Shown here: piece by piece, positions 2,639 to 7,064 of the stretch | How positions within the stretch are numbered: position 1 is the stretch's first letter | How the letters are laid out: each line of letters opens with the position of its first letter | Assembly: GCA_021160245.1 (NCBI GenBank) | Contig: JAGHCW010000033.1 | Coordinates: forward strand, 1-7,921 | Source: a bacterium | Lineage (GTDB): Bacteria; B130-G9 | DNA length: 7,921 nucleotides | Reading direction: 5' to 3' | Program-made: the position numbers and the translations under genes | Notes under the pieces: generated by a model | The model's input: the letters and a program-made list of their open reading frames with translations, nothing else | Databases searched by the model: none | Told to the model about the DNA's origin: nothing

Positions 2639-3051
2639 CTCTTGTTTTTCTATATTGCAGTCAGTCACATCTGCTCTTAGCATCGGCCAGTAAACTCGCA
2701 TATAACAGGCGTCACCTCCTCTATAAGTATTCATACTCAGCAAATCGCGCCTTGCGTGATTTTGCGCCCACCTCGCCCCTATAATCAACAGAGATTTAGT
2801 CCGCGCAGCAAGGAACTCATCTCAGCATTGCGAATCATTTCATCCACATCGTGCGAGGCGCCATTGAAACGCTTGAATACGATTCCATGTATCACTATAA
2901 TCGTCTGGAACGATTGCTAGGGTGTTCTTGGCGCGGTCTCTGCGCGGGATTCAGCCATGTCGTGGAGACTCCCACCTAGGCGACTCAGACATACGGCGAC
3001 GACATCGGCTATCGAACGAAATAACCATCAAATAGAGGGGAGACTTGCCTA
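2639..3051. other. Divergent intergenic region
   Basis: About 410 bases between two divergently transcribed genes. On the plus strand it holds a sigma70-like promoter (2873-2901, listed separately) and the leader of the downstream gene. No good minus-strand promoter stands out; TTGATT with CAAAAT 18 bases later (about 2760-2790, minus) is only a weak match. Short open stretches exist in both strands but have no ribosome site or recognisable similarity. No tRNA or clear terminator was seen. Confidence 0.6.
2873..2901 (+). promoter_or_regulatory. Sigma70-type promoter for the zinc-ribbon/pseudopilin gene
   Basis: TTGAAT (2873-2878), a 17-base spacer, then a perfect TATAAT (2896-2901). It points at the gene starting at 3052. 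The expected transcription start is near 2908, giving a leader of about 144 bases, long enough for leader-level regulation, although no known riboswitch is recognised there. Confidence 0.55.
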
Positions 3052-4131
3052 ATGGAAGAGAAATCCAGCTGCCAGCATTGCGGCGCTTCTGTGGACCCGG
3101 CTGAGGCTAACGACGGCCAATGCCCGGCCTGTGGCCAACCCTTAAACAACGAATCATTGACCGAGGCTGATACGAAAGAGACTGCTGACGGCGAATCCCC
3201 AAAACGCGCGCCTCGGGGGCTCTCGATTGGGCCCTTTCTGATAAGTCTAGGCATCATGCTTATCGCCCTGGCTGCGGTGTGCATTCAATGCGGCTTTAAG
3301 GACTACATTGGAGTCATGGCGATTGCCCTGGTCGGGGGGCTTTCTCTGGTCGTAATTGGCATAATCTACAGCAGTATTTGCTCGTGGCTTACGCTGCGCC
3401 GGCGAGGCGCCCGAGCTCTTTTGGCTCTCTCTGCGATGGTTCTGCTTTTCTCAACAGCAGCGCTGATAGCGATGATGGGCTTGGCCCCGCCCTTGGCCAA
3501 ATATGCCTCCATGCAGTGCAGACCGAGCTTCACGGCCGAGGCGCGACTGCAATCACAGCAGACGAATGAGGCTTATGCCGTGGCCGAGACTATCGCAGGA
3601 GGCATGTATAGGCTCAGGGAAGATATCGCTGATATCGCTATTTTCGCACCGGAGGGCGATGATAAAGGGAGGCGCGTGGATTACCTCTTTGGGAATATGG
3701 GCAAGATGCCGCAGTTCAGCGAGAATGCGGGCAAATCGTGGGGGACCTTGTCTGAGAATCTTCACTTCGTGCTGGCCACAAATGGCCGAACAGCGCCTCG
3801 GTTCAGGTATAAAATCAAGGGGGGATGGGATGGATCATACTTGCGTCAGGATGTGGGCGAGGACCCGTGGGGTTATGCCTATCTCGTCTCGATCAACGGT
3901 CTCGATGGCGGCACCCAGCCGGGCAATAACGTCTGGTGCTTAAGCGCCGGCCAGAATCACATCGTGGATACACCCGCAGATGCGGAGGAACTCAAGGGCG
4001 ATGACATCGGTCGGTGCCTCAATGCCCTGCCCTATTCCGTCCACACAATATACTTGTCGATCAGGCGGTTGCATGCCGAGCGGGAGGTAGAATCACGCAT
4101 CTTGGGCAAACGAGCAAAACGCAAGCACTGA
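3052..4131 (+). CDS. Zinc-ribbon membrane protein with type II secretion pseudopilin G-like C-terminal domain
   Basis: 359 residues, with three parts. First, a cytoplasmic zinc ribbon with two CxxC knuckles (C7/C10 and C24/C27). Second, three hydrophobic helices at about 58-80, 86-110 and 122-145; the basic segments KRAPRG (51-56) and RRRGAR (116-121) fit a cytoplasmic N-terminus and a C-terminus outside the membrane. Third, residues of about 160-320 resemble the globular domain of major pseudopilin GspG/T2SG: VDYLFGNMGKMP (209-220), then GWDGSYL...DPWGYAYLV (258-279), VWCLSAGQNHIVDTP (294-308) and GDDIG (316-320). No prepilin peptidase leader (G-F-T-L-x-E) is present, so it is probably not assembled as a normal pilin. 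The tail (337-359) is strongly basic. The start is supported by a purine-rich GAGGGGAG at 3035-3042, 9 bases upstream. A role linked to secretion or pilus assembly is inferred from the domain alone; no gsp/pil genes are next to it. Confidence 0.85.
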   Translation: MEEKSSCQHCGASVDPAEANDGQCPACGQPLNNESLTEADTKETADGESPKRAPRGLSIGPFLISLGIMLIALAAVCIQCGFKDYIGVMAIALVGGLSLVVIGIIYSSICSWLTLRRRGARALLALSAMVLLFSTAALIAMMGLAPPLAKYASMQCRPSFTAEARLQSQQTNEAYAVAETIAGGMYRLREDIADIAIFAPEGDDKGRRVDYLFGNMGKMPQFSENAGKSWGTLSENLHFVLATNGRTAPRFRYKIKGGWDGSYLRQDVGEDPWGYAYLVSINGLDGGTQPGNNVWCLSAGQNHIVDTPADAEELKGDDIGRCLNALPYSVHTIYLSIRRLHAEREVESRILGKRAKRKH

Positions 4132-4358: not shown

Positions 4359-4760
4359 TTGAAACACCGAGGAAATCAATCAGCAACCGAGCGAAGACTA
4401 CGCTCCAAACTACGGCTTCTGTTGGCCGACGGCGGCATAATGCATGCCAGCGCCGTCGTTATGAGTCGCGTCTGCGGTAAGCCAAACTGCAGATGCACAA
4501 AGGGCCACAAACACGAATCTCTCTACGTCACCAGATACAACGAGGCGGTCAATCAATATGACCTGGACCGAGCCTATAAACATGATCTCACGGCGATACT
4601 ATTTATGGTGCTGACGTTGGCCATAGCACTGACATTGGTCAACGCGTTCTACCTGCTCAACCTAAAGCCGGAGGAAAGAAGCAGATTGGCTAAGAAGTCG
4701 CTGGTGGAACAGTTCAAAGAGGGCTTCCGACATGCTTTGGAGACCTTCGCCCCAACATAG
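4359..4760 (+). CDS. Probable insertion-sequence remnant: DUF6788-like N-terminus joined to a transposase-like C-terminal tail
   Basis: 133 codons opening with TTG at 4359; an in-frame TGA at 4350-4352 lies just upstream, no Shine-Dalgarno is visible, and the first in-frame ATG is at 4440 (residue 28). Residues of about 18-58 carry CGKPNCRC (39-46) followed by GHKHESLYVT, which resembles the small DUF6788-type proteins encoded next to or within some transposon genes. Residues of about 66-133 (YDLDRAYKHDLTAILF, a hydrophobic stretch at 78-101, then basic helices) resemble the C-terminal end of DDE transposases, where a Y.LEHN.GHGK-like motif precedes a hydrophobic helix. No catalytic DDE residues are present. 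My reading is that the middle of a larger element was deleted in frame near residue 60. Alternatively it is a small single-helix membrane protein of unknown function. Expression is doubtful. Confidence 0.5.
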   Translation: MKHRGNQSATERRLRSKLRLLLADGGIMHASAVVMSRVCGKPNCRCTKGHKHESLYVTRYNEAVNQYDLDRAYKHDLTAILFMVLTLAIALTLVNAFYLLNLKPEERSRLAKKSLVEQFKEGFRHALETFAPT

Positions 4761-6917: not shown

Positions 6918-7000
6918 GGGAAGAATTGAGAAGGAGATGATGAGAAAATGGATATGGGCGGATGCGTGGGATGCTGGGAGATACGTCGAATCTGGCTTTG

Positions 7001-7064
7001 TGTAGGAGCGGGGCTTGTCTCCGCCCATCTATATTTTTGGGCAGACACAAGGCCTGCCCCTACA
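7001..7064. repeat. Imperfect hairpin repeat (TGTAGG...CCTACA family)
   Basis: Two 26-base arms (7001-7026 and 7039-7064) pair at 21 of 26 positions around an AT-rich 12-base loop. The ends read TGTAGG and CCTACA, with GCTTGT/ACAAGG and CGCCC/GGGCA inside. Translated, it gives the VGAGLVSA...TRPAPT peptide that often turns up in spurious ORFs, as expected for an intergenic palindromic repeat found in many copies in various bacterial genomes. It lies between two minus-strand genes and could act as a transcript stabiliser or terminator, though there is no T-run. Only one copy is in this window. Confidence 0.8.

Follow-up and report, generated by a model that had tools for sequence, protein, structure and literature searches.

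The locus described here raises the question of how a pilin-like domain came to be the last part of a polytopic membrane protein, and what such a protein could do. To our knowledge, pilins are described as always starting with a class III signal, which enables cutting, membrane extraction and polymerisation. The gene at 3052-4131 (+) of the window (the whole stretch of DNA that was analysed, 7,921 nucleotides) has another layout: it runs as an open frame throughout from its ATG, and its product of 359 amino acids consists of a zinc ribbon, three membrane helices, a pilin/pseudopilin head and a basic C-terminal tail. GC content by codon position (0.57/0.47/0.65) resembles that of the neighbouring genes.

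Residues 1-33 hold two CxxC knuckles in the pattern CxxC-x13-CxxC (Cys 7, 10, 24 and 27; 3070-3132 (+)), and by this pattern the N-terminus is a zinc ribbon with putative zinc binding. Pfam zinc-ribbon models match it weakly (DZR 0.027, DUF7575 0.0044), none reaching its cut-off, and the segment is modelled at a pLDDT of about 80-86. Hydropathy gives three membrane stretches, at residues 55-84/86, 82-115 and 119-149, which in the model appear as helices 60-79 (TM1, 3229-3288 (+)), 82-115 (TM2, 3295-3396 (+)) and 120-155 (TM3, 3409-3516 (+)). RRRG (residues 116-119, 3397-3408 (+)), a basic patch with a Gly at the prepilin leader-end position, aligns with the KKG of pilins in alignment A3 and is a possible remnant cleavage site. 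Behind TM3, the helix of residues 162-191 (3535-3624 (+)) is the equivalent of pilin alpha1-C in the VIA alignment and alignment A1, in degenerate form, with the conserved DC... and D...WP motifs lost. The head (residues 207-322, 3670-4017 (+)), delimited by alignments, profiles and model, carries the motifs YL-GN-G-MP, W-G-YL, DPWG-Y, SAG and GDDIG, and is followed by a basic tail, helical and some 30 residues long (328-358, 4033-4125 (+); model and alignment A3), which all aligned relatives lack. The TM2-TM3 loop, SICSWLTLRRRGAR, has four positive and no negative charges, and because of this the positive-inside rule predicts a cytoplasmic N-terminus and ribbon with the head outside. In the Pfam scan the window protein has no N_methyl match, which in the canonical pilin reaches 32 bits, and alignment A3 has no acidic residue inside TM3, so that Glu5 is missing. 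The earlier note had read from the DNA a zinc ribbon, three membrane helices and a GspG-like domain in one protein, oriented ribbon inside and head outside and with no N-terminal class III signal peptide ahead of the domain; sequence, hydropathy, profiles and fold bear out all of this.

The T2SSG family (PF08334) matches the window protein with 15.1 bits, below the Pfam cut-off of 21, and therefore the GspG-like call cannot rest on Pfam alone. Searches with T2SSG and zinc-ribbon models, which the earlier note had proposed, thus fall short for the window protein itself, but paralogues with the same head domain exceed the T2SSG cut-off (L006, 23.9 bits; L002, 25.7; L053, 21.5). A Coatesbacteria family profile, whose alignment contains the window's own head domain, gives 202 bits (E 7e-60), and a profile made from four canonical pilins only gives 92.5 bits; the resemblance of the head to the pilin/GspG domain is far beyond chance. 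A sequence search of the PDB with the full protein gave no match. In an AlphaFold (AF2) model built from a 24-row alignment (mean pLDDT 78.8, mostly above 90 in the head), the best VIA match is 3fu1_B (Z 9.1, rmsd 2.5, 102 residues), and the top seven matches are all GspG pseudopilins (Z 7.1-9.1), the best unrelated chain reaching Z 4.0. Model residues 164-322 match EpsG/PulG, with residue 164 placed on EpsG/PulG residue 26, and the structural comparison with GspG that the earlier note had suggested therefore comes out in its favour. Foldseek also ranks GspG entries one to six, with a probability of 0.95-0.96 for the two best chains and weak E-values (0.07-0.08). On the predicted structure, the head is a pseudopilin fold.

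From its GspG-like features the earlier note had named the domain "pseudopilin G-like"; as to its source this has to be corrected, as the nearest relatives are type IV pilus pilins. Relatives of the window protein sit in Candidatus Coatesbacteria MAGs, four of which were searched (G000, G001, G002 and G003; three are same-family genomes beyond the source); a contig scan using the single window protein found no relative, but an alignment-based scan did. Each of the four genomes encodes one canonical GFTLIE pilin (on contigs C190, C108, C34 and C10, respectively), which in G000 adjoins genes for a T2SSE ATPase (PilB), a T2SSF platform (PilC), a second pilin, PilM, PilO and a secretin. A separate cluster on contig C4 of G000 holds a T2SS-type ATPase, GspG, further pseudopilins, GspK and GspD. 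Against the canonical pilin profile the fusions score 92-215 bits (92.5 for the window protein, 215 for L023, 211 for L010), whereas the genome's true GspG from contig C4 scores only 32, mostly over the common N-terminal helix. Derivation from a type II secretion GspG is rejected for this reason, and the head is assigned by profile to the type IV pilus pilins. The comparison demonstrates homology with the pilin encoded beside pilB, of which the head is a paralogue. The window domain is no GspG orthologue, lies outside the gsp cluster and groups with type IV pilus pilins by profile and in a head-domain tree that leaves out GspG. All Coatesbacteria copies cluster together in that tree (99/97), the window copy stands apart from the other polytopic copies and the polytopic label requires at least two changes; on this topology, Glu5-less polytopic anchors arose at least twice in Coatesbacteria.

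Where the pilin begins is plainest in L023 (G001 C23), a three-helix paralogue without a zinc ribbon. From Gly-1 it aligns gaplessly with the canonical pilin over the first 60 residues (GLGLLWRLAGIAAAGGMILILYSLTFTYMEEGIRTRALGDCRNIS vs GFTLIEVVVVVAIIALLAGILTPLIFKYIDEANETRALGDCRNIS), with 8/28 identities in the first 28 residues (shuffle p 0.003), and its match to the canonical pilin profile begins at the pilin start, the GFTLIE position. Its model has a single helix, 98-150, that begins directly after RKRG, and residues 91-289 superpose on complete PulG from residue 1 (Z 6.4). Alignment and model together make it clear that the last membrane helix of L023 is the pilin's own first helix. In the window protein, RRRG119 is likewise followed by TM3 at the alpha1-N position, but an insertion of about 16 residues precedes the alpha1-C equivalent, and the alpha1 region is modelled as two helices, 120-155 and 162-191. 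Because this insertion breaks the gapless match, the equivalence of TM3 and alpha1-N is inferred here. It is strongly suggested that the last membrane helix of the window protein is the former pilin alpha1-N, with the zinc ribbon and a hairpin of two helices as additions ahead of it.

Coatesbacteria pilin relatives that lack the class III signal and Glu5 sit on anchors of one, three or about five helices, or on a TPR stem. Single-helix copies occur in tandem on G000 C174 (two), on G001 C117 (one) and on G003 C150 (one). The likely counterpart of L023 is L052 (G002 C205, 2543-3517 (+)), with one in-frame stop after the alpha1-C part that is either an error or the mark of a pseudogene; L010 (G001 C154) has about five helices; and L026 (337-1758 (+), the same as L034 1160-2584; G002 C124) has one N-terminal membrane helix, TPR-like repeats recognised by eye and a C-terminal pilin-type head. 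Pfam detects N_methyl in the canonical pilin and in none of the fusions. For the anchors of 1, 3, 3 and about 5 helices, hydropathy apparently puts the head outside in every form, since the helix number appears odd each time. The N-terminal parts of three Coatesbacteria polytopic forms have no detectable homology to that of the window protein (best E 0.037), and those of L023 and L052 match each other weakly (E 9e-4); a single common anchor is therefore unsupported. Among the Coatesbacteria relatives the zinc ribbon is confined to the window copy, and the order zinc ribbon, three membrane helices and pilin-type head occurs only in this one of the four genomes searched. The tandem pair on G000 C174 (L027, 8663-10296 (-)) adjoins an SppA-like signal peptide peptidase gene, named by eye, and the same-strand run of the single-helix pilin-head gene on G001 C117 (L031, 6916-10911 (+)) ends in a PilT-like ATPase gene about 2 kb away.

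Fusions of the same kind are found outside the Coatesbacteria. A search for DUF4190 covered 14 genomes of another phylum, and in one of the proteins found (L117, G386) a zinc ribbon (2.4e-5) and DUF4190 (3.9e-11) are followed by a pilin from alpha1 on; the T2SSG match is 0.047 over profile positions 2-97, and residues 94-257 share 34-58% identity with many ordinary class III-signal pilins (e.g. L164, E 5.6e-23). The order is the same in L165 (G187), which matches residues 2-145 of L117 at E 8.7e-23, and L163 (G268) joins DUF4190 to a pilin head (head match E 2.7e-23). As probably in the window protein, the pilin helix comes last in the membrane, and Glu5 is present in none of the DUF4190-pilin fusions that can be aligned on the alpha1 proline. 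Their hairpin is DUF4190, unlike that of the window protein or anything in the Coatesbacteria genomes searched: DUF4190 (PF13828) is absent from the Pfam matches of the window protein up to E 10, its profile has no match in the four Coatesbacteria genomes, and the idea that the two extra helices of the window protein are DUF4190 was dropped. Because the pilin subfamilies differ, the Coatesbacteria and other-phylum fusions are probably independent, and as judged from these matches a zinc ribbon and hairpin have been grafted ahead of a pilin in unrelated lineages. Five more DUF4190 proteins (L124, L126, L128, L135 and L172) are pilin-like by eye only, from the AIPNF/alpha1 pattern, and are not counted as proof of fusion; Pfam calls none of the first four a pilin. 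Strong T2SSG matches with long frames were ordinary class III-signal pseudopilins in all but one case (L116), their long frames being upstream read-through. In other bacteria, L059, L062, L012 and L116 carry T2SSG/pilin-type heads on a single N-terminal helix with no GFTLxE signal. The literature searched held no paper on DUF4190, on a pseudopilin with a zinc ribbon or on N-terminal pilin fusions; the architecture recurs in unrelated bacteria yet seems unstudied. Both findings on which the earlier note had made its reading depend, a structural match of the head and fusions of the same general kind outside this assembly, are at hand.

Neighbouring genes in the window encode DnaX (identified by eye from the translation), a propeller protein, a thioredoxin-like protein, a glycosyltransferase and an acetyltransferase-like protein. 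Neither the window nor the surroundings of the other polytopic fusions contain pil or gsp genes; a shared operon with such genes was rejected on this basis, and the link to pili is therefore by ancestry only. The survey for domain order and gsp/pil neighbours suggested in the earlier note thus yields the first and not, for the polytopic fusions, the second, and although the protein may, as that note proposed, be a mimic, cap or sensor of some secretion or pilus system, gene neighbourhood lends this no support. Just upstream, 2938-3024 (+) matches the pilin profile (E 5.6e-4 in the genome, 3.5e-5 among window frames) and reads ...HVVETPT, a stop, ATQTYGDDIGYRTK and a closing stop, with one in-frame TAG. 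By this match the stretch is what remains of a decayed canonical pilin-type gene at its 3' end, recognisable over roughly the last 28 codons only, and it stops 27 bases before the ATG of the fusion.

The best explanation, to which a probability of about 0.5 is given, is that the gene encodes an unprocessed, membrane-fixed protein derived from the type IV pilin of the same organism, which would act on the pilus machine or the pilin pool or report on either. Pilins require cleavage by prepilin peptidase, and Glu5 serves to dock each subunit to the free N-terminus of an adjacent one, according to a review (PMC10191384). With no free N-terminus and no Glu5, the window protein would be kept out of the filament and probably remains in the membrane, apart from the pilus. 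As an even number of helices was added ahead of the pilin helix, the head would still lie outside, as in an unprocessed prepilin, and this uncut posture in the cytoplasmic membrane may give access to whatever pilins touch. Pilins, minor pilins or the PilC/PilMNO platform could there be touched by the head and the alpha1-like helix, and the cytoplasmic zinc ribbon could contact a partner inside the cell. On this analysis the fusion would act as a resident pilus assembly partner or as a pilin-pool reporter, the latter being a task that PilS carries out by other means. Several features count against this explanation: the polytopic fusions have no pil/gsp neighbours, the alpha1-C/TM3 region of the window protein is not gapless against the pilin and has lost the D...WP motif, and the zinc ribbon is present in no other Coatesbacteria relative.

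Comparison with known systems places the protein between several of them. With type IV pilins, such as the canonical Coatesbacteria pilin upstream of pilB and the GspG/PulG fold, it shares the sequence family and fold of the head, a last membrane helix at the place of alpha1-N and a head outside; it differs in lacking Glu5 and a class III signal at its N-terminus, and in the two membrane helices and zinc ribbon that precede the pilin part. Modular type IV pilins, of which PilB and PilC of Streptococcus sanguinis are examples, are also pilins with grafted foreign modules, but in the accounts given in PMC8179133 and PMC10191384 the grafts come after an ordinary class III signal at the N-terminus, in proteins that serve as pilus subunits, whereas in the window protein the graft is ahead of the pilin and embedded in the membrane. 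What is new here is a pilin with modules grafted on the unusual, front side. PilS, a polytopic membrane sensor kinase of the PilA level and proposed reader of the membrane pilin pool, senses PilA directly within the membrane (PMC6058289). The likeness is in function only, as the window protein has no kinase domain and carries a pilin head itself.

It is possible, if rather unlikely, that the head was recruited as a general extracytoplasmic domain that binds a ligand or senses the cell envelope and has lost any connection with pili or secretion, and that the zinc ribbon signals inside. The fusions do sit among unrelated genes, their anchors are highly varied and include the TPR stem of L026, and the pilin-packing part is degraded in the window copy. 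A free domain would have no need of alpha1-C, however, and the sister fusions retain the whole pilin including that part.

Prepilin peptidase cuts at the cytoplasmic end of a membrane helix, and the window protein could in principle be a prepilin with a very long leader, cut between RRRG119 and the A that follows; TM3 and the head would then be built into the filament as a minor subunit without Glu5, perhaps at the tip, and the ribbon and hairpin would stay in the membrane. A Gly at -1 follows three Arg where TM3 meets the cytoplasm, RKRG is retained at this position in L023 and a prepilin peptidase gene is present in the genome. The claim of the earlier note that such a protein could not be processed is accordingly too strong, given the potential site at the cytoplasmic end of TM3 and the peptidase gene; the feature actually lost is Glu5. 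Passages of PMC10191384 describe tip-capping pilin subunits naturally without Glu5 and leaders of variable length, and the same review passages do not describe a leader with two membrane helices. Processing of this kind is nonetheless improbable: position +2 holds an Arg and the sequence at the start does not read FTLxE, Pfam finds N_methyl in the canonical pilin and in none of the fusions, and the Gly at -1 is missing in most of the independent DUF4190-pilin fusions.

Least credible is a decaying paralogue or non-functional chimaera, for which the long branch of the window copy in the head-domain tree (0.74), its lost motifs, the pilin-gene remnant just upstream and the interrupted sister fusion in G002 could be cited, but the 359 codons are open with normal codon-position GC, and all four ribbon cysteines and most head motifs are retained.

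If the membrane-fixed pilin derivative is the right reading, its recurrence behind extra helices suggests that pilin folds also serve as resident membrane parts. A more speculative step, offered tentatively, is that front-grafted pilins form an unrecognised and repeatedly evolved class of type IV filament proteins, in which anchored heads with cytoplasmic zinc ribbons would seed, brake or report assembly from within the membrane. Such proteins provide a concrete set for testing pilin counting or filament start in cells.

Two other features of the window were observed. The open reading frame at 4359-4760 (+) encodes 133 amino acids, of which the N-terminal part is DUF6788-like (22.2 bits, cut-off 27.2) and is followed by one membrane helix; it looks like a fragment fused to a membrane segment. 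Positions 6945-7060 are a dispersed repeat, matched by at least 40 sites of the genome; it contains an imperfect inverted repeat (6945-6962/7020-7037) and translates on both strands to GAGLVSA..Y.WA.T.PAPT.
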